Below, in pieces: positions 2,251-24,775 of a stretch of 29,854 nt of DNA. The stretch is from positions 1-29,854 of the IMG/VR virus record IMGVR_UViG_3300007541_000122. One strand, given 5' to 3'. This stretch comes from a virus. Below the pieces are notes generated by a model. It ran no database searches. It saw only the letters and a list, made by a program, of their open reading frames with translations, and had not been told where the DNA came from. Numbering within the stretch: the first letter of the stretch is position 1; every line of letters starts with the position of its first letter. The position numbers were made by a program, and so were the translations under genes.

Positions 2251-5200
2251 ATGGAAACTAATAAAATCAAACTCAGTTCAATTGTAGAGAGCCAACTTCC
2301 TCTTTTTGTTAGAGAGGAATATCCTCTTGTATCAGAACTTCTTACTGAATATTATAGATCTCTAGAATCAAAAGGATCTTCTTATGACATTTTGCAAAAT
2401 ATTGATCAGTATGTAAAAGCAAATAATTTAACAAATCTGGTAGAAAAAACATCAACTACTGCAGATATAACTTTTTCTGATAATAATATTAACGTAAGCA
2501 ATACGGAAGGATTTCCACAGACGTATGGAATTTTGCAAATTGGGAATGAAATAGTACTATACAAATCTAAAACACAGACCACATTTAATGATTGTGTAAG
2601 AGGATTTAGTGGAATAACAGAATATTCAGTTGGAAACTCTGAGGATCTTGTTTTTACCTCTACAGAAATACAAGAACACTCAAGTGGAACTGAAGTTTTA
2701 AACCTTAGTGCTCTATTCTTAAAAGAATTTTTTAACAAAGTTAAAAAGCAATTTGCACATGGATTTGATAATAGAGAGTTATATACTGGAATTGATAAAA
2801 ATCTATTTCTAAAGCAATCTAAAGATTTTTATACTTCAAAAGGAACAGATAGATCATTTGAAATTCTTTTTAGAGTGCTGTATGGCAAAGATGTTGAAGT
2901 TATTTTACCCAGAAAATATCTAATTGAGCCTTCAAATGCACAATATAGAGTTACAAGAAATCTTGTTGTGGAACCTATTCAGGGTAATATAGAGGATTTG
3001 CAAAATAAAACTATATTTCAAGATCAATATGGAGATCTGCCAAAATCTTTTGGTACTGTAACTGACACTCAGAAAATTCTAAGTAATGATAAAGTATATT
3101 ATACATTAATGCTTGATTATGACTTTAATAAAGATATTATTGTATCAGGATCTATATTTGGCGAATTAAAAATACATCCAAAAACAACAATAACTGACAA
3201 TGCTCAAGATTCTTCGGATAATATTGTAGTTGATTCTACAATTGGATTTCCAGAATCTGGGGAATTGGTCGTTGATGGATCTATACCAATTTATATAACA
3301 TATAATGGGAAAACCGTTAATCAGTTTCTAAATTGTAGTGGTATTACTGATCCAATTACTTCTGGCACCGATATAGCATTAAACAGGTATGCTTATGGAT
3401 ATGATTCCTTAGGAAGTGAAATTAGATTTAGAATTACTGGAGTAATAGAAGATGTTGAATTACCCACGAGAAGTGCTTATTATGAAAAGGGAGATACTGC
3501 AAGGTTACTTACATTAGGTTATAATAAAAATTATCTTAAAGATAATAACTGGATATTTAATGCAGCAGTTAAATGTGAAGTAAAATCATTTACTTCTGAT
3601 GGAGAATTTAAGTATACAATTGAAACTTATGATAATAATGGTATATATGAGGGTGATGATGTAGAAATAGAATACATTGATTCATCCACGAGAACAAGAC
3701 AATCTACCGTTATTAATGGATCTAATGTAAAATTTCCTATAGGTAGTATACCAGGAAAAATTTTCCAAATTCAAACAAATGGATTTGACATATTATCAAT
3801 TTTTTATGTTAAAAGACTTGTATCAAGATTTTCAAATAAATTTGTCTCTGATGTATTAAATGTATATCGAAATTTTGATTCTGATGGACTATACGTAACT
3901 TCATCATCATTACCATCATATGGAGCAAACATAAATGAAGATGTAGAAGACTATAAAATTATATTAAGTGGGTCTTTTTCTGGAGAAGTATTAAAAGTAG
4001 TTAATGATGGACAAAATCATGGATTTCTAACTGGCGATTCTATAATTTATTCTCCAGAAAGTGATACTAACACTCTAGGAATTCAATCTGGAATTTATTT
4101 TATAAAAAGAGAAAGTGAAACAGAAATAAAATTAGCAAGAAGTAGGTCTGACATTAGATTTGAAAAGTTTGTATCCATAGGGTCAACGACTATAACTAAT
4201 AACACTATTAGTTTGACGGGTTTTTCTAAAAAAGATAATATATTACCAGAAATTGACTCTCAGAGACTAGTTAAATTATTAAAATCTCCAGAAAATACGG
4301 AAAAAAGGTATGAAACCACTTCTGGCCCAACAGGGATCTTAATTAATGGTGTAGAAATATTAAACTACAAATCTAATGATTACCTTTATTATGGAGAAAT
4401 AAAGTCAGTTGATGTAATTTCTCCCGGAAGTGGATATGATATAATCAATCCACCAGAATTAGAAATACTTCCTTCATCTTCTGGACTTTCCAGTGCTCGT
4501 GGATATTGTGGAATTGAAGGGACATTACAAAAAATTGATGTAATTGATGGTGGATTTGATTATATTGCTACTCCAATAGTTACAATTTCTGGTGGTGGAG
4601 GAGAAGGAGCAACCGCTTTGGTAAAGATGAAAGATTATGAGCACTTTGTTGACTTTAATCCATCATCAACAAACCCCAGATTTAATTTAGTTGGATTGGG
4701 AAGTACAACTACATTAGGTTTTTCGACTTATCATAAATTTAGAAATAATGAATCTGTCATTTATTTGTCGGGGAACCAAACTTCTGTAGGAGGTCTTTCT
4801 ACAGATGCAAGATATTTTGTTACAGTCATTGACGGTCATAATATTAGTTTGCACAAAACTCTTGACGACTCTTTATTAAATAAAAATCCAATAAACTTAA
4901 CTTCATATGGAAGTGGAAATCATAGATTTAAATCTACAACAGTAAAGAAAAAAATAAATTCTATCTTAGTAACTAATCAAGGATCTGGATATAAAACTAA
5001 AAAAATATCAGTACCTTTTTCTGGAATCAATACGGCAACAAATACCATTAACGTATATGACAATCCGTATAATAGTGGCGATATTGTTTACTACTATGGT
5101 GGCGATCAAAATATAAGTGGGTTAGATACAGGAAAGTATATTGTAACTAAAATTGACCAAAAATCTTTTAAACTATCAAATGTTGGAGTTGGATCTACTT

Positions 5201-8200
5201 CTCAAGATTTTTACTTTAAGACAAAGCAGTATATAGATTTTATATCAAAAGGATCTGGAAATCATATATTTGATTATGAACCAATAACTGTTAGAATTTC
5301 TGGAAAAGTTGGAGTATCTAGCATATCTGAATTTGATGCTACAGCAAAGATTCAACCAATTTTTAGAGGAGAAGTAGTATCAACATTCATTTATGACGGA
5401 GGTGTTGGATATGGATCATCTGAAATTATTAACTATAATAAACAACCAGAATATAATTTGAATTCTGGACATGGTGCAATATTAACACCTGTCATTTCAA
5501 ATGGAAAAATAATAAGTGTATCTATTCCAAAAAAAGGTTTTGATTATAATTCTCCACCAAACTTAATTGTTAGAGGATCTGGTATTGGTGCAAATTTGGT
5601 TCCCATTATTGAAAATGGGCAAATTGTTGATGTGCAAATTATTTCTGGTGGAGTAGGATATGAACAAAAAAATACAACAATTGAAATTACATCCTCTGGT
5701 AGCGGATGCAAATTGCAATTTAATCCACAATTGTGGACTATAAACAAATTTGAAAAACTATTAAGTACTTCTAAGTTATCATCAAATGATAGTGTAGTTT
5801 TCTCTGGAAATAGCAAAGAATATGGATTACAATATACTCACCTATATTCACCTAGGCCCCTGAGAAACAAAGTATTTTCTGAGAATATAGATGAAGGAAA
5901 TTTAAAATACAGAACTGACTACCAAAATGATTTTGAGAATGAGAAGTATCATTCACCTTTACTTGGATGGGCATACGACGGAAATCCAATATATGGTCCA
6001 TATGGATATGATTCTCCATCAAATAAAAAAGTAAGGCAGATTATTAGTGGTTACTCAAATCCAATTGATAGTCAACAAAATAGACCAAATAAAAAACTTT
6101 TTCCTGCTGGATATTTTGTTGAAGATTATCAATTTGAAAACAAAGGCGACTTAGATGAGCATAATGGAAGATTCTGTGTAACACCAGAATTTCCAAATGG
6201 AACTTACGCATATTTCATGACTTTAGAATCCAAATTAGAGGATTCTGGTCTTTTTATTGGAGATAAAAAACCAAAATTCCCTTACATAATTGGCAATTCA
6301 TTTAAATCGAAACCAATAGACTTTAACTTTATTAATATAAATCAAGATACTTTTAATTTTGAAGCAAATTCTTTAATAAGAAACACGAGACCATTCAATA
6401 CTCTAAGCAATAATTCATCATATGAACCATTTAATAAAATAAAAAATTTAGAATCTAGAGTATTTGCAATAGAAAATACAAGAAAAAGTTCTATAGATTT
6501 TATACAGATAATTTCTGAAGGAAAAGATTACAAGGTAGGAGACAAAGTTGTTTTTGACAATAAAAATTCTGGAGGAAATTCTGCTTCTGCAGAAGTTGAG
6601 TATCTAAAGGGAAGAGAAATAGTTGGAATTTCTCAAACTACATCCAAAATATTTGACGTAGAATTTTATCCTTCGTCAAATACTAATAAGATAATAGGAT
6701 TTTCTACAATTCCACATAGTCTGTCAAATAATGATTTTGTTTATATTGATTCTTTGTCAAATTATGACAAAAATTTAAAAAAATCATTTAATATTGAAGT
6801 GGATTCTAGTAAGTTTATACTTACATTGGATGTGGGTGATGCTTCTATTACTGGATTAACAACATATTTTTATGTCTCGGGATTATTGGAATATCCGCTA
6901 ATTAGAGAAAATGATCTTTTCTCAATAAATTCCGAAAAGATAAAAGTTCTTAACATTGACAAAGATTCTTCAAGAATTAGAGTGTTGAGAGAGCAAGAAT
7001 CTACAGTTTCAACAGCACACTCTGCATATACTATATTAACAGAAGATTCTAGAAAATTTTACATTAATTTGGATGATAGATTAAAAGGCCAAAATTATAA
7101 TTTAAATCGTGAAATATATTTTGATCCAGAAGAATCTTTGGGAATAGGTTCCTATATTGGATTTGGGCATACTATTACATTTTCAAATCCTGGTGTTGGA
7201 ATAACCTCGATAATTATTCCAGAAAAAACAATATATTTAAAAAACCATAGATTAGAAACAGGAGATCAGATAAAATATAAAACAAATAGTGGTATTGGAA
7301 TTTCTGTATCTGAAGATGGAATTGCTAATTTCCAATTGTCCAATGGAAGTGATTTATATGTTGCAAAAATATCAAATGATTTGATTGGAATATCTACAGT
7401 AAAAGTTGGATTGGGAACAACCGGATCCTTTGTAGGGATCTCACAAACTGCATCTACTCTATTCTTTACTGGAGTTGGATCAGGGGATTATCACAGTTTC
7501 CAAACTAAATTTGATAATTTATCTAAAGGTAATGTAACAAAGAATACAATAACAGTATCTACTGCATCAACTCACTTGTTAGAAAAGGGAGATACTATCA
7601 ATTTGACAGTATTATCTGGATTAACAACAACGATATTTGTAAAATATAATGATCATAATAGAAGATTGGTAGTAAATCCAAGAGATTTCTCTTCTATTGA
7701 TATTGAAAATAATCTAATAACAATAGAAAATCATAAGTATTCTAACGGACAAAAACTAATTCACACATCTTCTTCTCCTGCAACAGGATTAGAGGACCAA
7801 AAAATTTATTATGCAGTAATATATGACAACAATAGAATTAGACTCGCCAGATCATTATATGAAGCTACTAGTGAAGATCAACCTATTATTAATATTACAT
7901 CATCTTCCTTTGGAACTTTATCAGAAGTAAATCCAAAATTAAACATAATAAAAAATCAAAAAGTTGTAATCGATTTATCTGATTCTTCTTTATCGGAACC
8001 TTCCTCTGGTATTGGTAGAACTTCATCATTTGATTTTGATTTATTCGTTGATCAAAATTTTTCAAGTAAATATTTTCCAATTAATGAAGATGGAACCTCC
8101 AAAATATTAAGAATTGGGGAGATTGGAATATCGACATCCGCCAGAATTGAATTTGTGGTTGATAAAGATTTTCCAAATTCTATTTGGTATAATTTAATAT

Positions 8201-9912
8201 CAAAATCTAATATTGAATTTAAGAAAGAGTATAGTTTTGATGGTGAAGTACTTGACTATAATAAAATAACTTTCTCCGAAAATGTACTAAGTGGACAAAA
8301 ATTAATTGTAGGAGTTGGATCGACTTCATTTAGTTTCAACAATGAATTTAATTATGAGTCAGATTCTTATTCACAAGGACAATCCACTTTTAGTTATTAT
8401 ACAAATTCCGAAAATGAAATTGGAGAAATTGAAAAAATAAATCTAACTTCCAAAGGAATGAGATATGAAAGGTTACCTTCTATTTCTACAATTTCAACAG
8501 ATACTGGAAGTGGAGTTATAATTATACCAAAAAGTCAATCAATAGGAGAAATAACTTCTATTAATATTAATGATATTGGAGGTGGTTATTTTGTCGATAA
8601 TACTATAAGACCTTTAATAAAATACTCAACAATATTAAAGGTTATTCCACTTTCTAGATTGGAATCTATTGATATTATATCTCCTGGATTGAATTACAAT
8701 ACTAAACCTGATTTAATAGTAATAGATGGATTTACCGAGAAAGTGGTCAATGATATTATTTTGGACTATGATATAGAATTAACCAAAATCAATATTATAA
8801 AGAATACAACTGGATTTTATAATACAGAACCAAAAATTCTGGCAGTAAATAACTCAAATGGACTTGGTATAAGTTCAGTACAATATGAGTCCACAAATAA
8901 GACTGTTAAAGTATATCTAACAAAGCAATTTAGTGATCCTGAAGAATTTCCATTCAATATAGGAGAGAATGTATTAATTGAAGGAATATCAACATTAGAA
9001 AAAAATATTAATGGATACAATTCTAAGGATTATGAATATTCTTTATTTCCTATAATTGGACTAAGTACTAGTTTAGGTGGTTCCAATGCATATATTGAAT
9101 ATTCTTTAGAGAAAAAATTATCTAACGGTACACCTGGCACTTTTGACTCGATAAATTCCTCTGGTCAAGTTATTCCCGAAAGATTTTTACCATCTTTTAA
9201 AGCAAAATTGTCAAAAAATACTTTTATTATTGGCGAAAATGTAACTTTTAATCAAAATAATGCTATTGGTAAAGTTTCCAAGTTTGATGAAAAAAATGAA
9301 TTCTTAACAGTAGAAACTAAATCTAATATTTTATTAGAATCACTTGTGATTGGAAGTACTTCAAAATCACAAGCTTTTGTTAAAGAAGTTTTTGAAAATG
9401 AAAGTTTTTGTAAGATTGGTTCTTCCTCTATTGTTAAAAATGGATGGAAGTCCGAAACAGGATTTTTAAACAGCGATCTTCAAAGAATTCAAGATAGTGA
9501 TTACTATCAATATTTTTCATATTCACTAAAATCAGAGATTGAGATAGAAGAGTGGAATGATGTTGTAAGTAATCTAAATCATACTTTAGGATTTAAAAAG
9601 TTTAGTGATTTAGAAATAAATTCTTTACCGCAGACTTCCGGAATCCAAACATCTCAAAATGGTGGATTTTTCTCTGCAGTATGTGACTTAAATAGTATGG
9701 TAGATGTTGATTGTGTACAAGACTATGATTTGGTTTCAGAAAATAGTCTTTATGCAGGAAATACATTAACCTCAGATGAAATTGTATTTAATTCTGTAAT
9801 TTTACAAGACTACTCAGAATCAATAGGTAATAGAGTTTTGATTATAGATGATATTAGTAACGATTTTAACACCTCATTATCAAACACCTTTGTAACTTCA
9901 TTTAATATCTAA
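2251..9912 (+). CDS. 7: Giant gp7-like baseplate protein with YHYH domain
   Basis: 2553-aa virion protein in the gene 7 slot. Residues 1-330 resemble the C-terminal part of T4 gp7, a baseplate wedge arm protein. They include a short helical segment (REEYPLVSELLTEYYRSLES) and, from residue 190, SKDFYTSKGTDRSFEILFRV, which lines up with a T4 gp7 stretch of the form DFYSTKG..SYKFLFKVLY. The rest is absent from T4 gp7. It consists of repeated beta modules (G-x-G-Y and G-D-x-V-x-Y types) and a YHYH-type domain around 1233-1325, with YHSPLLGWAYDGNPIYGPYG and then D-E-H-N-G-R-F-C-V-T-P-E-F-P. A C-terminal segment around 2405-2460 (DLQRIQDSDYYQYFSYSLKS) looks like a conserved end module. The YHYH name comes from a Pfam family; its role in virions is unknown. 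The baseplate role is confident from position and the N-terminal match. The function of the long extension is inference. Confidence 0.82.
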   Translation: METNKIKLSSIVESQLPLFVREEYPLVSELLTEYYRSLESKGSSYDILQNIDQYVKANNLTNLVEKTSTTADITFSDNNINVSNTEGFPQTYGILQIGNEIVLYKSKTQTTFNDCVRGFSGITEYSVGNSEDLVFTSTEIQEHSSGTEVLNLSALFLKEFFNKVKKQFAHGFDNRELYTGIDKNLFLKQSKDFYTSKGTDRSFEILFRVLYGKDVEVILPRKYLIEPSNAQYRVTRNLVVEPIQGNIEDLQNKTIFQDQYGDLPKSFGTVTDTQKILSNDKVYYTLMLDYDFNKDIIVSGSIFGELKIHPKTTITDNAQDSSDNIVVDSTIGFPESGELVVDGSIPIYITYNGKTVNQFLNCSGITDPITSGTDIALNRYAYGYDSLGSEIRFRITGVIEDVELPTRSAYYEKGDTARLLTLGYNKNYLKDNNWIFNAAVKCEVKSFTSDGEFKYTIETYDNNGIYEGDDVEIEYIDSSTRTRQSTVINGSNVKFPIGSIPGKIFQIQTNGFDILSIFYVKRLVSRFSNKFVSDVLNVYRNFDSDGLYVTSSSLPSYGANINEDVEDYKIILSGSFSGEVLKVVNDGQNHGFLTGDSIIYSPESDTNTLGIQSGIYFIKRESETEIKLARSRSDIRFEKFVSIGSTTITNNTISLTGFSKKDNILPEIDSQRLVKLLKSPENTEKRYETTSGPTGILINGVEILNYKSNDYLYYGEIKSVDVISPGSGYDIINPPELEILPSSSGLSSARGYCGIEGTLQKIDVIDGGFDYIATPIVTISGGGGEGATALVKMKDYEHFVDFNPSSTNPRFNLVGLGSTTTLGFSTYHKFRNNESVIYLSGNQTSVGGLSTDARYFVTVIDGHNISLHKTLDDSLLNKNPINLTSYGSGNHRFKSTTVKKKINSILVTNQGSGYKTKKISVPFSGINTATNTINVYDNPYNSGDIVYYYGGDQNISGLDTGKYIVTKIDQKSFKLSNVGVGSTSQDFYFKTKQYIDFISKGSGNHIFDYEPITVRISGKVGVSSISEFDATAKIQPIFRGEVVSTFIYDGGVGYGSSEIINYNKQPEYNLNSGHGAILTPVISNGKIISVSIPKKGFDYNSPPNLIVRGSGIGANLVPIIENGQIVDVQIISGGVGYEQKNTTIEITSSGSGCKLQFNPQLWTINKFEKLLSTSKLSSNDSVVFSGNSKEYGLQYTHLYSPRPLRNKVFSENIDEGNLKYRTDYQNDFENEKYHSPLLGWAYDGNPIYGPYGYDSPSNKKVRQIISGYSNPIDSQQNRPNKKLFPAGYFVEDYQFENKGDLDEHNGRFCVTPEFPNGTYAYFMTLESKLEDSGLFIGDKKPKFPYIIGNSFKSKPIDFNFININQDTFNFEANSLIRNTRPFNTLSNNSSYEPFNKIKNLESRVFAIENTRKSSIDFIQIISEGKDYKVGDKVVFDNKNSGGNSASAEVEYLKGREIVGISQTTSKIFDVEFYPSSNTNKIIGFSTIPHSLSNNDFVYIDSLSNYDKNLKKSFNIEVDSSKFILTLDVGDASITGLTTYFYVSGLLEYPLIRENDLFSINSEKIKVLNIDKDSSRIRVLREQESTVSTAHSAYTILTEDSRKFYINLDDRLKGQNYNLNREIYFDPEESLGIGSYIGFGHTITFSNPGVGITSIIIPEKTIYLKNHRLETGDQIKYKTNSGIGISVSEDGIANFQLSNGSDLYVAKISNDLIGISTVKVGLGTTGSFVGISQTASTLFFTGVGSGDYHSFQTKFDNLSKGNVTKNTITVSTASTHLLEKGDTINLTVLSGLTTTIFVKYNDHNRRLVVNPRDFSSIDIENNLITIENHKYSNGQKLIHTSSSPATGLEDQKIYYAVIYDNNRIRLARSLYEATSEDQPIINITSSSFGTLSEVNPKLNIIKNQKVVIDLSDSSLSEPSSGIGRTSSFDFDLFVDQNFSSKYFPINEDGTSKILRIGEIGISTSARIEFVVDKDFPNSIWYNLISKSNIEFKKEYSFDGEVLDYNKITFSENVLSGQKLIVGVGSTSFSFNNEFNYESDSYSQGQSTFSYYTNSENEIGEIEKINLTSKGMRYERLPSISTISTDTGSGVIIIPKSQSIGEITSININDIGGGYFVDNTIRPLIKYSTILKVIPLSRLESIDIISPGLNYNTKPDLIVIDGFTEKVVNDIILDYDIELTKINIIKNTTGFYNTEPKILAVNNSNGLGISSVQYESTNKTVKVYLTKQFSDPEEFPFNIGENVLIEGISTLEKNINGYNSKDYEYSLFPIIGLSTSLGGSNAYIEYSLEKKLSNGTPGTFDSINSSGQVIPERFLPSFKAKLSKNTFIIGENVTFNQNNAIGKVSKFDEKNEFLTVETKSNILLESLVIGSTSKSQAFVKEVFENESFCKIGSSSIVKNGWKSETGFLNSDLQRIQDSDYYQYFSYSLKSEIEIEEWNDVVSNLNHTLGFKKFSDLEINSLPQTSGIQTSQNGGFFSAVCDLNSMVDVDCVQDYDLVSENSLYAGNTLTSDEIVFNSVILQDYSESIGNRVLIIDDISNDFNTSLSNTFVTSFNI

Positions 9913-15999: not shown

Positions 16000-18900
16000 A
16001 TGCCACAGGAAACTAACCTTAACGTATCCCCATATTTTGATGATTTTGATCCTAGTAAAGGATATCATAAAGTTCTTTTTAAACCAGGATACCCAGTTCA
16101 AGCTAGAGAACTCACTACTTTACAGTCAATACTACAAAATCAAATTGAACAATTTGGCAATCATATTTTCAAAGAAGGGTCTGTAGTTATACCAGGAAAC
16201 ATTGTCTATAAAAATGACTTAAACAGTGTAATTTTAGAAGATAATTATCAAGGTCTCCCTTCTTACTTTTACCTTGATAGTCTATTGGGATCTAGAATAA
16301 GAGGTCAGAGGAGTGGTGTAACTGCAACGATTGAAAATTATATTAGATCTGGCAACGGGGTTAATAGAACGACTTTATTTGTAAAATATTTAACTTCGGA
16401 TTCAGAAACTAATTCACAGAGAACATTTGTAGATGGAGAAAATTTATTATTAGACCAGGACGTTGAAGTAATAGACCCAAATACAATAGATGATGAAGAC
16501 CCTTTAGAAATTTTGATTGAAAATGGAGAAGGATTTGCAACTGTAGTTTCTCAAGATGCAACTTCTTTGGGATCTGCTGTTTATCTTGAAGAGGGAATTT
16601 ACTTTCTTAGAGGTTATTTTGTAAATGTTCCTACAAGTATTTTATATTTAGATCCATATTCGAATATTCCTAGTGCCAAAGTAGGCCTTAGAATATTTGA
16701 AGATATTAAAACTGCAGTTGATGATGACACTTTATATGATAATGCACAAGGATTTTCAAATTATTCTGCGCCAGGTGCTGATAGATTCTCTATTTTTGTA
16801 AAATTAGATCAAATACCATTAGATTCCAACGATACTGAAAATTTCGTTCAATTGCTGGAAATTAATGCAGGACAACTTATTAGCCAAACTAGCAATTCTC
16901 AATATAATACATTAGCAGAAGAATTTGCAAGAAGAACGTTTAACGAATCTGGCAATTATTATGTAGATCCACCAATTGTTAGAGTTAATGAAAGTTTAAA
17001 TGATTTTAAGGGAAATAATGGATTATTTGAAGAAAATCAATTAACTTATGAAGATAATATTCCCGATGAAAGTATTGGTACATATAGTATATCTCCACTT
17101 AAGGCATATGTTAGTGGATTTGAAATCGAAACTATCAGCCCTACGTTCTTAGATTTTGAAAAACCAAGAGATACAAAGACTTTAACAGATCAAAGTATAA
17201 ATTATTTTACTGGCCCAACTTTAACTTTAAATAGAGTATATGGATCTCCTCTTGTTAGTATTGCCACTACTTATTATGTAAGTCTTAGGGATAGTAGAGT
17301 AGGAGAATCTTCAACATCTGCTTCCGGAAATGAAATTGGATTAGCTAGGGTTTATGATTTTGCTTTAGAATCTGGATCATATACAACATCAAATCCAGAT
17401 GAAAATCAGTGGGATATCTCACTTTATGACATCCAAACATATACAACATTAACCTTAAATGAGCCAATAACACTACAAACACCAACTCATATTAAAGGAA
17501 AAGAAAGTGGTGCAATCGGATATTTGAGATATGATGTTTCTTCGGGAGTTGCAATTACTGTCTATACAACAGATGGAAATTTTTCTCTTGGAGAAAAACT
17601 TATTTTTGATGGAATAGAAAATACAAGGGTAACTAAGTCAGTAAAATCATATGGAATAAATGATGTAAAGTCTTTATATGGTATTGTTGGAAGTGCATAC
17701 ACTTTCACTGCAGATACATTACAAACTCCAGCAATTTCAATAGGTCAAGTAAAAATATCAGAAGGATCTTCTGGAATTAGTACGGTTACAACATCAAATA
17801 CTTTTTTTGTTGGTTCTGTTGATGTTGGGAATTTAGTTGCATTTTCAAATCCAGGTTTTTCCACAAATACTTTTGCCAAAGTTCTATCAGTATCAGACAG
17901 ATCTTTAACAATAAGTGGAGTAACTACTGTTACTGGTATATGTGATGGTTCTTTACCATTATCTGATATAACACCATCAGACTTTAGAGTAGTTTCAACA
18001 TCTTTACAGGTATCTGAAGATAACTCTTTATATACAGTTCTACCAAAATCATATATTTCAAGCGTAGATTTAACCAATTCAAATTTGACGATTAGAAAAC
18101 AGTTTGATGTGACAATAACATCAAACTCTACTGGAATAATAAATGCTGGCAACAATGAAACATTTTTACCATTTGATGAGGAAAGATATGTATTGGTAAG
18201 AGAGGATGGTCAAACAGAGCCTCTTAGTGCTGATAAATTTGTATTTACAAATGGATCAAGTTCTTTAACAATAAATGGACTTTCTGGAAGTGGAAGTGCA
18301 AAATTAATTGCAACTCTCAGAAAAACCAATATAAAGTCAAAGATTAAAAATAAGAATAGAATAAAAACAATTGTCATCGATAAATCCAAGTATTCATCTT
18401 CTGGAGTTGGTGCAACAACTTTAAATGATGGACTTAGTTATGGAAATTATCCATATGGAACAAGAGTACAAGATGAGGAAATTTGTCTACTTGAACCTGA
18501 TGTATCAACAATATATGGAATATACGAATCTAATGATACTTCAACTCCGGATACTCCATCTTTAATATTAAATTCTTTAACAGGACCAACAGGAAAGACA
18601 GGAGATCTTCTAGTTGGAGAAGAGTTTATTGGTGAAAGAAGTAAATCTATTGGAATTTATGTAGAAAAAATTAATGACCTAAAAGTAGGATTTAGTTATC
18701 TAAATTCAAGTTCTTTTATTGAAGGAGAAACTATAAGGTTCAGAGAATCGGGAGTTACTGCTACTGTCGTATCTTTAGATAATGGGGACAATGATATCAG
18801 TTCTTCATTCTTTATTGATTCAAACCAAAAAGAAACAATTTATGATTACTCTAAGTTAATAAGAAGAAAAAATATAAAAGAACCAACAAGAAAATTAAAA

Positions 18901-21516
18901 GTAGTCTTTGAATCTGCAAGTTTTTCTGCATCTGATACTGGAGACATAACAACAGCAAATTCATATGAACAATTTAATTATGCTTACATAAGTAATATTT
19001 ACACTACATTGAGAAACTCAGATATTTTAGATATCAGACCCAGAGTTTCTCCTATTACGCCAACAGAAAATTCAAGATCTCCATTTGAGTTCTTATCTAG
19101 GAATTTTACAGAGTCTGGAAATTCTGCATCCAATGTTTTAGCTTCAGATGAGTCTATCCTTTTATCATATTCTTTCTACCTACCAAGAATTGATAAAATT
19201 ACATTGAACAAAAATGGATCTTTAGAAGTAAAAAGTGGCATTTCTGCAGAAGAACCACAACGACCTCTCATTGGCGAAGATGTTTTAGAAGTTGCCAGTG
19301 TTTATCTTCCACCATATTTAACAAATATTAATGAAGTTGATATTGATTTGAAGGAACATAAACGTTATACGATGTCGGATATTACAAAACTTGAGGATAG
19401 AATTGAAAATTTAGAATATTATACTTCACTTTCACTACTCGAAGTAAATACATCTACACTATCAGTAATTGATGAAAATGGAATAAACAGATTTAAATCC
19501 GGATTCTTTGTAGACAACTTTTCATCAAAAGATACTCAAGATAGATTGGTAGTTTATAGAAATTCTATAGATCTTACTAATTTAGAATTAAGGCCAAATC
19601 ACTATACATCATCAATAGATTTGCTACTCGGCACAAATTCTTCAGTAGGAATAGGTACATCTGTAAATCCACTACAAGATGCAAAGACGGATACTAATCT
19701 AATTGGAAACGGAGTAAGAAGAACTGGTCAGCTAGTGACATTGGATTATGAAGAAGTTCCCGAAATAGTACAACCATATGCGTCAAGGTCAGTTAATGTA
19801 AATCCATATATTGAAGACTTTTATACTGGCACCATTTCACTATTCCCATCTTCCGATGTTTGGGTAGATCAGGTTAGGAATGCATCCAATACACTTTTTA
19901 TTGATAGAGAAGAAATTGAACTTGAAAAACTTTTAGATTACGACCCTCAGAAAGGATTTGCTGGTGGTGAATGGAATGCTGCCGAAAAAATTTGGGTAAT
20001 ACCAGAAAAGAGAACATCTTTTGGTGACAGGGTACTTGATACAAAGATAATACCTTATATGAGGTCTAGAAATGTAGAGTTTACTGCAAATAGGTTAAGA
20101 CCGCTAACAAGGGTATATCCATTTTTTAATGGTGTTAATTTTAGTAAATTTATTATACCAAAATTAATTGAAATTAGCATGACTAGTGGAGTTTTTCAGG
20201 TTGGCGAAACTGTTGTAGGTAGTTTTGATACTTTAGATTCTCTATCTCCAAAAATAACTTTCAGGGTTGCTAAGCAAAATCACAAATATGGAGATTATAC
20301 CAATCCTAAGGATATCTACACAATAAATCCATACGACCCAAATACAAATATTCCAGAAACTTATAGTTCAACATCATCTATTCTCAACGTTGATACATAT
20401 AGTTTATCAAATCAACCACAAGGACAATTTAGTGGATACATTTCCGTTGGAATGAAGTTGAGGGGTCAAACAAGTCAAGCAGAAGCAGTTATTGCTAACA
20501 TCAGACTAGTAACAGATAAAACTGGAACTATTTTAGGATCTTTCTTTATTCCAAATCCAAATACAAATGTTAATCCCAAATTTGAATGTGGATCTAAGGT
20601 ATTCAGATTAACTAGCAGTGAGTCTAATTCTTTAGTATATGGAACATATACCACTAGTGCTGAAGAAAAGTATGTTTCTGAAGGTAAAATTAATACAGTT
20701 CAAGAAAACTTAATCGTATCAAGACCAATCAGAATAGAAGCACCAGAGGATGAACCTGCAATTCCAGGACCAGGAACTCCCCCACCTGCGCCACCTACCG
20801 CAGCACCTACACAAACTCCCGGTACAAGTGACTCAACACCAGGGACTGGTGGAACAGATAATGGTAATGAAGAAGGAACAGGACCAGGACCAGAACCACA
20901 ATCAAAACCTCCAACTATTGTTTATTATAACTATGGTAAGCCCAAATTGTACGAAGGAGGTGCAAAGAGATTAAAAGAGGTAGCAAAAGCTGCAGGTCTT
21001 CCTAGAGATTTGATTAAAAAAATTGATCCTGATATGAGCGCAAAGCGAGAAAGACAGATTGCTACTCTAATTAATGATTCTTCATATGCAAAAACTAACA
21101 ATTTCGAAATATCAACAGGCAATACTAAAAATGGACCCAAAACTACAGTTGGATCTGGCCAAAGGGTTTCTTTATCTGGAACAAAAATAGGAAAAGGTGC
21201 AACTAAAGCAAGAGTTAATGAACCACCTAAGGCAAGTAATAAGAATACTAAGAGTAGTGGAGATGGAGTTATTTCAAATATTAATAGATCAACCGTCGCC
21301 AGAGCTGGTGGCGTGAGCAGTGGTGGTAATACGAGTGCATCTCCACCAAGATCATCTCCACCACCAGCACCTGCTGCTCTAGCACCTGCGACTATGAGTG
21401 GTGGCGGCAGTATGGGTGGCATGGGCGGCATGATGAGTGACATCAACCTTAAGATGAATATTCAAATTATTCCAAATTCGCTAAATAGATTGTGTAAATT
21501 GAGTTCTATATTGTGA
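16000..21516 (+). CDS. DUF4815-type baseplate/fibre protein with truncated S74 chaperone start
   Basis: 1838-aa protein. Its N-terminus (LNVSPYFDDFDPSKGYHKVL, then FKPGYPVQARELTTLQSILQ and EQFGNHIFKEGSVVIPG) is the hallmark of DUF4815-type structural proteins of marine T4-like phages, sitting where T4 has genes 9-12. The DUF4815-type body runs to about residue 1575. A Pro/Gly/Thr-rich linker (about 1580-1645) and a basic, Ser/Asn/Lys-rich region follow. A second Pro/Ala-rich stretch then leads to a GGSMGGMGGMM tract and, at about 1813, SDINLK, the Ser/Lys start of an S74 self-cleaving intramolecular chaperone. The protein then ends abruptly after 26 residues of that domain. The remaining chaperone is in the next ORF in the -1 frame. 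The linker DNA is visibly richer in G and C than its surroundings. Family membership is confident; the exact particle location is inferred. Confidence 0.82.
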   Translation: MPQETNLNVSPYFDDFDPSKGYHKVLFKPGYPVQARELTTLQSILQNQIEQFGNHIFKEGSVVIPGNIVYKNDLNSVILEDNYQGLPSYFYLDSLLGSRIRGQRSGVTATIENYIRSGNGVNRTTLFVKYLTSDSETNSQRTFVDGENLLLDQDVEVIDPNTIDDEDPLEILIENGEGFATVVSQDATSLGSAVYLEEGIYFLRGYFVNVPTSILYLDPYSNIPSAKVGLRIFEDIKTAVDDDTLYDNAQGFSNYSAPGADRFSIFVKLDQIPLDSNDTENFVQLLEINAGQLISQTSNSQYNTLAEEFARRTFNESGNYYVDPPIVRVNESLNDFKGNNGLFEENQLTYEDNIPDESIGTYSISPLKAYVSGFEIETISPTFLDFEKPRDTKTLTDQSINYFTGPTLTLNRVYGSPLVSIATTYYVSLRDSRVGESSTSASGNEIGLARVYDFALESGSYTTSNPDENQWDISLYDIQTYTTLTLNEPITLQTPTHIKGKESGAIGYLRYDVSSGVAITVYTTDGNFSLGEKLIFDGIENTRVTKSVKSYGINDVKSLYGIVGSAYTFTADTLQTPAISIGQVKISEGSSGISTVTTSNTFFVGSVDVGNLVAFSNPGFSTNTFAKVLSVSDRSLTISGVTTVTGICDGSLPLSDITPSDFRVVSTSLQVSEDNSLYTVLPKSYISSVDLTNSNLTIRKQFDVTITSNSTGIINAGNNETFLPFDEERYVLVREDGQTEPLSADKFVFTNGSSSLTINGLSGSGSAKLIATLRKTNIKSKIKNKNRIKTIVIDKSKYSSSGVGATTLNDGLSYGNYPYGTRVQDEEICLLEPDVSTIYGIYESNDTSTPDTPSLILNSLTGPTGKTGDLLVGEEFIGERSKSIGIYVEKINDLKVGFSYLNSSSFIEGETIRFRESGVTATVVSLDNGDNDISSSFFIDSNQKETIYDYSKLIRRKNIKEPTRKLKVVFESASFSASDTGDITTANSYEQFNYAYISNIYTTLRNSDILDIRPRVSPITPTENSRSPFEFLSRNFTESGNSASNVLASDESILLSYSFYLPRIDKITLNKNGSLEVKSGISAEEPQRPLIGEDVLEVASVYLPPYLTNINEVDIDLKEHKRYTMSDITKLEDRIENLEYYTSLSLLEVNTSTLSVIDENGINRFKSGFFVDNFSSKDTQDRLVVYRNSIDLTNLELRPNHYTSSIDLLLGTNSSVGIGTSVNPLQDAKTDTNLIGNGVRRTGQLVTLDYEEVPEIVQPYASRSVNVNPYIEDFYTGTISLFPSSDVWVDQVRNASNTLFIDREEIELEKLLDYDPQKGFAGGEWNAAEKIWVIPEKRTSFGDRVLDTKIIPYMRSRNVEFTANRLRPLTRVYPFFNGVNFSKFIIPKLIEISMTSGVFQVGETVVGSFDTLDSLSPKITFRVAKQNHKYGDYTNPKDIYTINPYDPNTNIPETYSSTSSILNVDTYSLSNQPQGQFSGYISVGMKLRGQTSQAEAVIANIRLVTDKTGTILGSFFIPNPNTNVNPKFECGSKVFRLTSSESNSLVYGTYTTSAEEKYVSEGKINTVQENLIVSRPIRIEAPEDEPAIPGPGTPPPAPPTAAPTQTPGTSDSTPGTGGTDNGNEEGTGPGPEPQSKPPTIVYYNYGKPKLYEGGAKRLKEVAKAAGLPRDLIKKIDPDMSAKRERQIATLINDSSYAKTNNFEISTGNTKNGPKTTVGSGQRVSLSGTKIGKGATKARVNEPPKASNKNTKSSGDGVISNINRSTVARAGGVSSGGNTSASPPRSSPPPAPAALAPATMSGGGSMGGMGGMMSDINLKMNIQIIPNSLNRLCKLSSIL

Positions 21517-21785
21517 GATTTTACTTAGATAAAATTTTAAAATTAAATGGAGCATATTATGAGTGGAATGAAAAAATGACAGAAATTACTGGTGTTTCTG
21601 GAAATTCTTATGGAGTTATCGCTCAAGAAGTCCAAAAAGAATTTCCGGAAATGGTTAAAATGCAAGAAAATGGTTACTTGTCAGTAGACTATATTCAATT
21701 GATTCCTGTAATGATAGAATCAATAAAAGAGTTAAATCAAGAAATAGAAAATTTAAAAGAAATTATTAATTATTTGAAAAAATGA
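21513..21785 (+). CDS. S74 intramolecular chaperone domain, C-terminal part, as a separate ORF
   Basis: 90-aa ORF carrying most of an S74 (endosialidase-type) intramolecular chaperone. It shows YLDKILKLNGAYYEW, GVIAQEVQKEFPEMV and GYLSVDYIQLIPVMIESIKE, then a C-terminal coiled coil (ELNQEIENLKEIINYLKK). In this family the domain helps a fibre trimerise and is then released by Ser/Lys cleavage at its N-terminus. The catalytic S-D-x-x-L-K lies in the preceding gene, in another frame. The frame is open from 21498, and the likely start is GTG at 21513, whose GTGA overlaps the upstream TGA. The ORF could therefore be translated by coupling, produced by -1 frameshifting as one long polypeptide, or be the remnant of a frameshift mutation. 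Its stop overlaps the next ATG (ATGA). Confidence 0.8.
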   Translation: MRFYLDKILKLNGAYYEWNEKMTEITGVSGNSYGVIAQEVQKEFPEMVKMQENGYLSVDYIQLIPVMIESIKELNQEIENLKEIINYLKK

Positions 21786-22249
21786 CATTAATTGATATGC
21801 AAGAAAAAATAATCTCCAAAAATTCTAGATCTGTATATAAGGATTCTTTACTTTTTTCGGAAAAGGTTTTAGTAAAAAGATCTAAAATACATAGATGGGG
21901 TATTTTTGCAAGAGAAAAAATAAAAAAATATGAGATTATAGAGGAGTCCCCATACTTTTTTATTCATTATGACGAGATGGACAATTCCTCATCAGTTTTG
22001 CCATATACATATCCTTATGATTATAGCAATGGATATATTGTTGGAATGGGATATTGTGGATTATATAACCATGACTTCGACTCAAACGTTGAATATTATG
22101 TTGATGGAGCAAATGAAATAATGGTCCATTATGCATCAAGAGATATTGAGATTGGTGAAGAATTAACTCTAAATTATGGAGAAGAAAATGCTAAACATTT
22201 TGTTATCGATAACCCCAATAATACACTGGTAACTAATCAAAATAAATAG
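21782..22249 (+). CDS. SET-domain protein (putative protein-lysine methyltransferase)
   Basis: 155-aa protein consisting almost entirely of a SET domain (about 28-135), the fold that transfers methyl from S-adenosylmethionine to protein lysines. Visible motifs are RWGIFA (38-43), which is the cofactor-side G-x-G-x-F; YNHDFDSNVEY (95-105), which is the N-H-x-x-x-x-N knot motif; and ASRDIEIGEELTLNYG (118-133), with the family's D-I-x-x-G-E-E-L-T-x-x-Y-G and its catalytic-site tyrosine. The pre- and post-SET cysteine clusters of eukaryotic enzymes are missing, as in compact viral SET proteins such as the Chlorella virus enzyme. The ATGA overlap with the chaperone ORF suggests co-translation. The substrate is unknown; a virion or host protein is equally possible. 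SET identity is confident; activity is inferred from the intact motifs. Confidence 0.85.
   Translation: MTLIDMQEKIISKNSRSVYKDSLLFSEKVLVKRSKIHRWGIFAREKIKKYEIIEESPYFFIHYDEMDNSSSVLPYTYPYDYSNGYIVGMGYCGLYNHDFDSNVEYYVDGANEIMVHYASRDIEIGEELTLNYGEENAKHFVIDNPNNTLVTNQNK
22241..22248 (+). promoter_or_regulatory. Possible T4-type late promoter (AATAAATA)
   Basis: AATAAATA at the very end of the SET gene, 22 nt before the ATG of the 834-aa gene. It is one base off the T4 late consensus TATAAATA and sits where a separate promoter would help if the preceding cassette was inserted. It could be chance in AT-rich DNA. Confidence 0.33.
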
Positions 22250-22270
22250 AAATAATAAAAAAGCAAAAAA

Positions 22271-24775
22271 ATGAAAGTTATAGATCCATTAGCACAATCT
22301 TTTTATATTGAAAATAGAAGAGGTGCTTTTATTACTTCTGTTGATTTATATTTTTTGTCAAAAGATGATGATTTGCCAGTAACTGTTCAACTTAGACCAA
22401 TGGAACTTGGTGTACCAACCAAGAAAGTATATCCATTTGGTGAGGTTATATTAGATCCTAAAGATATTGAAGCTTATGATGATGCTTCAGTTCCGACTAG
22501 AGTGACTTTTCCTTCTCCAGTCTACTTAAAGGGTCAAAAATTTCATTCTCTTGTTATAATCTCACAGTCCCAAAATTATAATGTTTGGGTTTCTAGGTTG
22601 GGTGAAATTGATGTTTCAACCATATCTCTAGAAGAATCATCACAATTTGTAGTTACTAAGCAACCAGTATCTGGTGGACTTTTTAAGTCTCAAAATGCTT
22701 CAACTTGGAATGAAAGTCCATATGAAGATTTAAAATTTACGCTGTACAGAGCAAATTTCACTCAAGGCCAAGGAAATTTTTCATTCTATAATCCAGAATC
22801 AAATTTAGGAAATGGTCAAGTTGCAACTTTACGTAAAGATTCTTTGGAATTTTCTTCAAAAAAGATAAGAGTTGGTTTAGGAACAACAGTACAAGACACA
22901 GATCTTACTTTTGGAAATACAATTCTCCAAAAAGAAACTAATGCAACAGGAAATTATGTTGCGGCCGCTGGAATTGCAAAAGGAAATTTGACTTTAGTTA
23001 ACGCTGGTGTTGGGTATACTCCATCATCAGGTTCTTTTACTTATAATAACGTCCCTTTGAGTAATATCACTGGAAACGGCAGAGATGCAACTGCAAATAT
23101 TACCATTTCTAATGGTGTTGCTATTGCAGCAACAATATCCAATGGCGGAACTGGTTATGTTATTGGAGATGTCCTAACATCCACACAAATTGGAACAGAT
23201 TCTCTTGGCAGAAACTTACAAATATCAGTATCAGAACTAAGTGGGGTAAATGAATTAATAATTGATAATGTTCAAGGAGAGTTTGAAGTTGGGACTGCGA
23301 AAGTAGTTCAGTATGTTAATAATTCGGGCATAACTACAGATTTAAATTATTCTGTTGGCGGCAACGTTCTTATACCATCAGATGGAATTCAAGTAGAAAC
23401 AGATGGTTTACATATTAAAGTAAATCATAGAAATCATGGAATGCACGCAGGAGAAAATATTGTAAAGATATCAAATGTTATTGGAAATATTAAACCAATT
23501 AAATTAACAACAGACTATGATAAAGATTCTAATCAAAATATTCTGGTAGATAATACTGATAATTTCTCAACTTTTGAAAATGTTGGTGTTGGCACCACTA
23601 ATCCAGGTTATGTTTTAATTGGTGATGAGATTATTTCTTATGAGGGAGTAACTGCAAATTCTTTAACTGGAATAACCAGAGGAATTGATCAAACTTTATC
23701 ATTTTCGTATTCACAAGGAACTTCAGTGTACAAATATGAATTAAATGGACTATCTTTGAGAAGAATTAATACCACACATACACTCCAAGATGCTACAGTC
23801 TCTGATCCAGTTGATTTTGATTACTATACTATTAAAATAGATACATCTCAAAATGGAAAAGTAGATGCACTCCCTTATGGTCAAGTTGATAGAAGTGTTG
23901 GAACTACTTTCCCCAAATTATATGCAAATGAGACAAAATCTGCGGGGGGATATTCCATAAATTGTACTCAAAATATTCAATATGAAATTGCAAATCCAAA
24001 TATACAGACAACCTCAGTTCGCGGAACTAACATCACTGCATCAATGAGAACAGTTTCGGGAACCAGTGTTGATGGTGTAGAAAATTCATTCCAAGATAAA
24101 GGATTTACTAATGTAAAACTGTATGAAAATAATTATTTTGATTCTCCAAGAATAGTTTGCTCAAAAGTAAATGAGGATGAAAGATTATCCACACTTCCTA
24201 CGAAGAAATCATTAACCGTAGATTTGACACTTTCAACAGCAAACTCTTATATATCGCCAACAGTTGACTTAGACAGATCCTCAATTGTATTTACTACTAA
24301 TAGAATTAACAGTCCCATTGAAAATTATGCTACAGATAACAGAGTCAGTACTATTTCTGATGATCCGTCCGCATTTGTTTACGCAACCAATACTATTCAA
24401 TTAGAAATTCCAGCAACTTCACTAAAAGTACTTGTTACTGCATATGTAAACGTTTTTAGTGATCTTAGAGCTCTGTATTCAATTAAGAGTAATGCAACTG
24501 ATGAATCAATTTTCTATCCTTTCCCGGGATATTCAAACCTCACCGATGATGGTAGGGTTATTTCACAATCATTAAGTGACGGAACTTCTGATAAAAAAAT
24601 AATTAAAACCAATGTAATTGGATATAACTCAGAAGATTTGGAGTATAAAGAGTTTGAGTTTAATATAAACAATCTCTCTTCATTTAAATACTTTAGTATT
24701 AAATTGATTGGATCGGGAACAAATCAAGCTTTTCCACCAAGACTATCTGATCTTAGAGTTATTGCATTAGCATAA
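22271..24775 (+). CDS. Virion structural protein resembling the C-terminal half of DUF4815-type proteins
   Basis: 834-aa protein that opens almost at once with DPLAQSFYIENRRGAFITSV, followed by L-Y-F-x-S-K-D-D ... P-V-T-V-Q-L-R-P. In related marine T4-like phages I associate this element with the interior of the large DUF4815-type protein, so this looks like the downstream half of a split gene (inference). Further features are V-S-R-L-G-E-I-D near residue 110, a G-x-G-Y beta module (about 237-320) and an L-I-G-D-E-I-I-S-Y ... I-T-R-G module (about 421-490). A C-terminal beta domain carries ENNYFDSPRIVCSKVNE and ends in PPRLSDLRVIALA. No Shine-Dalgarno sequence precedes the ATG, only A-rich DNA. 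The next gene starts one base after the stop. Structural role is likely; its exact place is not known. Confidence 0.78.
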   Translation: MKVIDPLAQSFYIENRRGAFITSVDLYFLSKDDDLPVTVQLRPMELGVPTKKVYPFGEVILDPKDIEAYDDASVPTRVTFPSPVYLKGQKFHSLVIISQSQNYNVWVSRLGEIDVSTISLEESSQFVVTKQPVSGGLFKSQNASTWNESPYEDLKFTLYRANFTQGQGNFSFYNPESNLGNGQVATLRKDSLEFSSKKIRVGLGTTVQDTDLTFGNTILQKETNATGNYVAAAGIAKGNLTLVNAGVGYTPSSGSFTYNNVPLSNITGNGRDATANITISNGVAIAATISNGGTGYVIGDVLTSTQIGTDSLGRNLQISVSELSGVNELIIDNVQGEFEVGTAKVVQYVNNSGITTDLNYSVGGNVLIPSDGIQVETDGLHIKVNHRNHGMHAGENIVKISNVIGNIKPIKLTTDYDKDSNQNILVDNTDNFSTFENVGVGTTNPGYVLIGDEIISYEGVTANSLTGITRGIDQTLSFSYSQGTSVYKYELNGLSLRRINTTHTLQDATVSDPVDFDYYTIKIDTSQNGKVDALPYGQVDRSVGTTFPKLYANETKSAGGYSINCTQNIQYEIANPNIQTTSVRGTNITASMRTVSGTSVDGVENSFQDKGFTNVKLYENNYFDSPRIVCSKVNEDERLSTLPTKKSLTVDLTLSTANSYISPTVDLDRSSIVFTTNRINSPIENYATDNRVSTISDDPSAFVYATNTIQLEIPATSLKVLVTAYVNVFSDLRALYSIKSNATDESIFYPFPGYSNLTDDGRVISQSLSDGTSDKKIIKTNVIGYNSEDLEYKEFEFNINNLSSFKYFSIKLIGSGTNQAFPPRLSDLRVIALA

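Follow-up and report, generated by a model that had tools for sequence, protein, structure and literature searches.

S74 domains are intramolecular chaperones that cut themselves off, and tail-fibre assembly chaperones can also be separate genes (cf. PMC9608196, PMC7289586). Canonical S74/ICA domains begin with SDxxxK, in which the Ser and Lys form the catalytic dyad (S587 and K592 in MyRF, S911 and K916 in endoNF; PMC8326128), and in the MyRF ICA structure the strand carrying the cut site is supplied by a neighbouring subunit and threads through the ring (PMC8326128). The phrog_358/DUF4815 proteins, which include VrlC/VriC of the Kyanoviridae cyanophages and the Ackermannviridae and the phi812 protein of PDB entry 9euf, lie in the genomic slot from gp8 to gp13, and in the 12 isolated relatives inspected they are encoded by one gene. 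Here we describe a locus in IMG/VR record IMGVR_UViG_3300007541_000122 (positions 1 to 29,854, the whole stretch analysed and referred to as the window) in which the same slot contains two genes, A and B, and in which an S74 domain at the end of A is distributed over two open reading frames (ORFs).

B has 139 relatives in IMG/VR, of which the best 80 were read; further loci were added later, and individual loci are designated by L numbers. The scored set comprises 49 distinct loci in which the gene is split and 35 distinct loci in which it is fused, and the trees of A and B have 86 rows. The parts of the locus in the window, from A to B, are all on the + strand.

An S74 domain in two pieces

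A (16000-21516) terminates with SDINLKMNIQIIPNSLNRLCKLSSIL and a stop codon. These final 26 codons (S74N, 21436-21516) carry the Ser-Lys dyad, in the motif SDINLK, together with the first helix of an S74 domain. S74b, a separate 90-residue ORF with a GTG start (21513-21785), begins by repeating that helix and continues with the remaining S74/ICA fold (VRFYLDKILKLNGAYYEWNEK..., alpha1 to alpha4), lacking the Ser-Lys dyad; a domain profile search matches its positions 17-58 to Peptidase_S74. The ORF coordinates in the first-pass annotation and the GTGA and ATGA overlaps between these genes all hold. Its description of the end of A as a fibre-like self-processing tail does not, as the end of A departs from a normal S74 tail: A keeps the dyad, the remainder of the fold is encoded by a gene of its own, and this arrangement is kept in 31 distinct loci. 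We regard this conserved and apparently two-piece S74 domain as the main new result, and no report of a two-gene S74 was found in the open-licence PMC literature.

Two ORFs are seen in every S74 at this site, in 31 distinct loci of the subfamily from many samples, and S74N and S74b co-occur in every S74 locus found. A two-ORF S74 also ends two other genes (L105/L106 and L156), and the S74s read outside this subfamily are intact. The frame relation of A to S74b is +1 in some loci and +2 in others, with S74b starting between -16 and +9 nt from the A stop codon. The S, D, L and K of SDxxLK are invariant in 30/30 loci. The ratio of nonsynonymous to synonymous polymorphism (pN/pS) is 0.30 for S74N codons 1-14 and about 0.37 for S74b, is lowest in the annotated frame and rises above 1 when the sequences are read out of frame; both pieces are under purifying selection.

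The AlphaFold model of S74b alone has a predicted local distance difference test (pLDDT) score of 91.6 and the order alpha-beta-alpha-beta-alpha-beta-beta-alpha. It matches the MyRF ICA crystal structure 7dc3 (template modelling score 0.85, E 4e-5), followed by 3gw6 and 3gud, and so has the ICA fold, with the dyad strand absent from S74b and located on A. The window therefore shares with the known S74/ICA domains (endosialidase endoNF, 3gw6; GA-1 gp12, 3gud; MyRF, 7dc3) the SDxxLK dyad motif and, in its second piece, the same fold, but differs in that helix alpha1 marks a break between two ORFs, and the chaperone body would be a separate polypeptide with its own promoter-like site. ICA domains act in the same chain as the protein that is matured, whereas here the pieces are in separate ORFs whose relative frames vary. 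Because the MyRF strand threads a neighbouring subunit, the known reaction would accommodate a strand and a ring that come from different polypeptides, and by this analogy the separation of S74 into two pieces is structurally plausible. Separate-gene tail-fibre chaperones are likewise small proteins that adjoin a fibre gene and aid assembly, but S74b would contribute part of an autoprotease fold, and its putative substrate bears the catalytic residues.

Megablast against phages gave no match. In isolated phages the best S74b matches are below 60% identity. Most of the annotated matches from isolates fall within features labelled as tail fibres or structural proteins; the two that were read at the sequence level are intact single frames. 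A recent duplication of the helix within a locus was not shown by comparing its copies; nucleotide similarity is only slightly higher within than between loci (p 0.08), and both are well above those of other S74b stretches.

Among the tail genes that end in a two-piece S74, those in L105 (1544-2995), L106 and L113 (2-2992) also contain Hint/intein-like domains. That of L113 is a PT-HINT match (E 2e-8), accompanied by inserts very rich in Arg and Lys, and that of L105 is a weak Intein_splicing match with C...HN ends. In L102 (1-2836) the A tail and two-piece S74 are followed by terminase genes instead of B, reflecting either a mosaic phage or a misassembly.

A baseplate gene split once

A is 1838 residues long, of which residues 1-1580 are conserved and the remainder is a lineage-specific tail, and it matches DUF4815 (PF16075, E 1e-62) in a domain profile search. 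B (22271-24775, 834 residues) has its own ATG at DPLAQSF and starts MKVIDPLAQSF. In profile comparisons against phrog_358 (2056 positions), A 1-1582 corresponds to positions 1-1400 (E about 0) and B 4-834 to positions 1421-2055 (E 2.6e-187), so that the two jointly cover the family profile end to end with about 20 profile positions between them, far more than chance would give. A PDB search matches both to the same chain of 9euf, a DUF4815 protein from the baseplate of Staphylococcus phage phi812, with A aligning at its N-terminus and B at 789-945. In all 12 cyanophage isolates inspected the counterparts of A and B are continuous in a single open frame (7.2-7.9 kb) with the same neighbouring genes, annotated as one coding sequence in 11 of the 12; in S-SKS1 the frame is open but the region is unannotated. 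The window has two ORFs in this position and retains the neighbourhood gp8-x-gp13-gp14-gp15 seen in the isolates.

A and B therefore derive from a single DUF4815-type gene, as had been proposed from the sequence of the window, and the break lies at about A residue 1580 and B residue 4. The earlier alternative that the DPLAQSF protein is never fused to DUF4815-type sequence fails, since the two are fused in all 12 isolates inspected and in the 35 fused loci. The split is shared by at least 48 loci besides the window, and the break is always at the same position, between A residue ~1580 and the DPLAQSF start of B. The split rows form one group in the B tree, with one change between split and fused states (SH-aLRT 93); the A tree also has a single change, with weaker support (63). 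In these trees the fission occurred once. The split is also present in closer relatives of the window, a situation that had been considered as a possible refutation of a cassette, but the genes between the halves vary among them.

For the fused relative L055, residues 222-268 at the junction are predicted with low confidence (pLDDT <50), as a presumably disordered linker that separates two beta domains; the modelled junction matches the phi812 baseplate structure 9euf. The linker is very variable among fused relatives, reaching about 220 residues in L060, and in L054 it contains a weak DUF4214 match; the junction thus tolerates inserts in fused proteins too. The equivalent position in the window is the Pro/Gly-rich linker at 20740-20919, which had been noted as richer in G and C than its surroundings. 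It is indeed 52% GC, exceeded by 0.3% of equal-length stretches of the window. As an indication of foreign origin this was rejected: third-position GC over the whole A tail is 0.20, near the 0.15 of the A core, and the richness comes from the Pro and Gly codons. The linker is followed by a small conserved tail segment (YYNYGKPKL...GGAKRLKEVAKAAGLPRDLIKKID..., 20920-21240), present in many split relatives whether or not S74 is present, and by a Gly/Pro/Met-rich stretch (21241-21435) that ends in MGGMGGMM and precedes the S74 start.

Promoter-like sites before B and S74b

The published cyanomyovirus late promoter is NATAAATA (PMC2984593). TAAATA is found 23-51 nt 5' of the B start in 48 of the 49 split loci, where 13 are expected and the maximum across 300 simulations is 23, and at the equivalent place in only 2 of the 35 fused loci (split versus fused, p 8e-20). 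In the window AATAAATA precedes both B (TAAATA at 22243) and gp8 (14425), and as motif matches both sites conform to the T4-type late promoter, NATAAATA upstream of late genes. The site before B, AATAAATAGA (22241-22250), overlaps the stop codon of the preceding SET gene and places TAAATA 28 nt 5' of B.

TAAATA also lies 19-49 nt 5' of S74b in 31/31 loci. In the window it belongs to CTAAATAGA (21481-21489), within the S74N coding sequence and with TAAATA 31 nt 5' of the S74b start. Across the loci it is mostly provided by CTA AAT A.. of the codons for A-L-N-R within A. That Leu codon is CTA in 27 of 30 loci, compared with 75 of 551 Leu codons elsewhere in A (p 4e-19) and with 11 of 133 Leu-Asn pairs (p about 1e-18). 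This bias reflects selection on the nucleotides, as is expected of a promoter hidden in coding sequence. B and S74b would each have a candidate late promoter of their own.

The S74 and SET genes as an apparent mobile unit

Between S74b and B lies a gene for a 155-residue SET-domain protein (21782-22249), which accompanies S74b in part of the clade. It matches the SET profile PF00856 (E 4.5e-13), its nearest solved relative is vSET of PBCV-1 (1n3j, E 2.5e-12), and it shares with vSET the NH...N (GLYNH) and GEELTLNYG motifs, including the NH and Y expected of SET methyltransferases. It differs from vSET in being linked to S74 and to Gly-rich tail proteins, in unrelated phages too. The SET-adjacent S74s form one clade in the S74 tree (100/100), and their B proteins are scattered; B sequences reject a grouping of the S74+SET loci as a clade (p 5e-33), and placing the L090 S74 with its B relatives is also rejected (p 0.011). 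S74 and SET thus appear to move as a unit among phages that are already split. In all nine S74 loci with SET a Met immediately precedes SDxxLK, although these belong to one S74 clade and are not independent evidence. The enzyme, a predicted methyltransferase, may be a hitch-hiking or accessory gene.

The unit is frequently missing. Nineteen of the split loci with enough upstream sequence are without S74, and only L138 (SET) and L002 (a remnant) keep any of it. In L002, whose B is about 91% identical to that of the window, the unit has recently decayed (8720-9001): a deletion took S74b and most of SET, S74N is damaged, and only a C-terminal remnant of SET is left. S74 presence requires about 10 changes on the tree, and S74 may have come with the fission or later.

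In the unrelated phages L132-L136 SET adjoins Gly/Met/Ser-rich proteins, a recurring association of SET with Gly-rich tail proteins. In L133 and L136 it also adjoins an S74-like fibre, and in some of these phages it directly follows such a fibre gene.

A plausible mechanism and its alternatives

The most probable scenario is that A and B come from one DUF4815/VriC-type baseplate protein that underwent a single split, within the flexible linker joining two beta domains, as B acquired its own start codon and, we infer, a T4-type late promoter. In the baseplate the halves presumably remain in contact, and the new free end of A would have become a site at which tail segments are gained and lost. 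The locus provides a clear case of a virion gene that divided within a flexible linker and whose downstream half came to be preceded by a promoter-like site. The first-pass annotation had instead proposed that an acquired S74/SET cassette divided the gene, which would require that cassette-free relatives lost it later. Members with S74+SET are indeed among the deepest split lineages (L088 and L090), loss is recent in L002, and the many changes of S74 on the tree are needed in any case. However, the horizontal movement of S74+SET means that its presence in deep lineages need not be ancestral, and about 17 split relatives, counted among those with enough upstream sequence, have neither S74 nor SET yet share the same break and, in all except L041, the promoter-like site before B. 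What is constant among split loci is the stop after A, the new B start and TAAATA before B, and to describe the fission as the acquisition of a stop, a new start and probably a late promoter fits better than to call it the effect of a cassette. The S74+SET genes do behave as a transferable unit, as had been suggested, but that they caused the split is not shown and we consider it doubtful.

For the end of A itself, we think it probable that it forms a two-chain S74 chaperone/autoprotease with S74b. A would contribute the cleavage strand, which holds the Ser-Lys dyad (SDINLK), together with a helix, and S74b the donut and the coiled-coil part. S74b would be made separately, through translational coupling and/or from the candidate late promoter within the tail of A, and would trimerise through its C-terminal helix; the trimer could then take up the SDINLK strands of three A chains and hold or register their C-termini, after which A would cut itself before the Ser, freeing a short peptide and S74b. 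That S74N is instead a relic kept mainly as DNA of the S74b promoter, with S74b a free-standing chaperone for another fibre and A never cleaved, seems unlikely. It would account for the nucleotide-level constraint on the A-L-N-R codons, for the predicted folding of S74b alone and for the tolerated loss of the module in L002, but the dyad codons are not part of the promoter motif, differ in their third positions while encoding invariant amino acids, and are in a segment with the low pN/pS given above; moreover, S74N and S74b occur together in every locus and have both decayed in L002. Programmed ribosomal frameshifting that joins A and S74b into one normal S74 tail would suit ORFs that overlap or nearly abut, with S74b in the -1 frame in the window, but it is very improbable, and as a general explanation it was rejected because frame relation and offset vary among the loci. 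In addition, a fusion would carry the helix twice, since each side of the break has a copy, and every locus has a start codon and a promoter-like site for S74b itself. Although these sequences are metagenome contigs, breakage of intact genes by sequencing or assembly error is refuted, since 31 distinct loci sampled at many sources share this arrangement and both pieces are under selection, and its probability is negligible.

Several points weigh against a working two-chain S74. It is predicted from the sequences of uncultivated cyanophage-like viruses, and the embedded CTAAATA before S74b is a motif match that differs by one base from the published NATAAATA. The usual place of S74 domains is after a beta-helical fibre, and here a low-complexity Gly/Pro/Met stretch precedes the domain. 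The module is also dispensable, being wholly absent from many split relatives and recently lost in L002. The fuller proposal stands at slightly better than even: a naturally split S74 working in trans, in which the baseplate protein has the catalytic strand only, a separately transcribed small protein is the rest of the fold, the promoter is overprinted on the coding sequence of the catalytic piece, and the module occurs in at least three unrelated phage genes (A, L105 and L156). The computations show the gene fission, the two-ORF S74, the selection on both pieces and the promoter-like sites, whereas assembly in trans, cleavage and transcription are inferred. If it is true, a two-gene S74 separates the chaperone body from the catalytic strand, and short peptides could be used to test complementation in trans, in the way that split inteins allowed for inteins.

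Other features of the window

The gene order is of the T4 type, with gp25, gp6, gp8, A to B, gp13/14/15 and the terminase small subunit, as in Kyanoviridae. We also note that the gp7-like baseplate protein (2251-9912) is very large, at 2553 residues, and contains an inserted YHYH domain (PF14240, E 4e-25).

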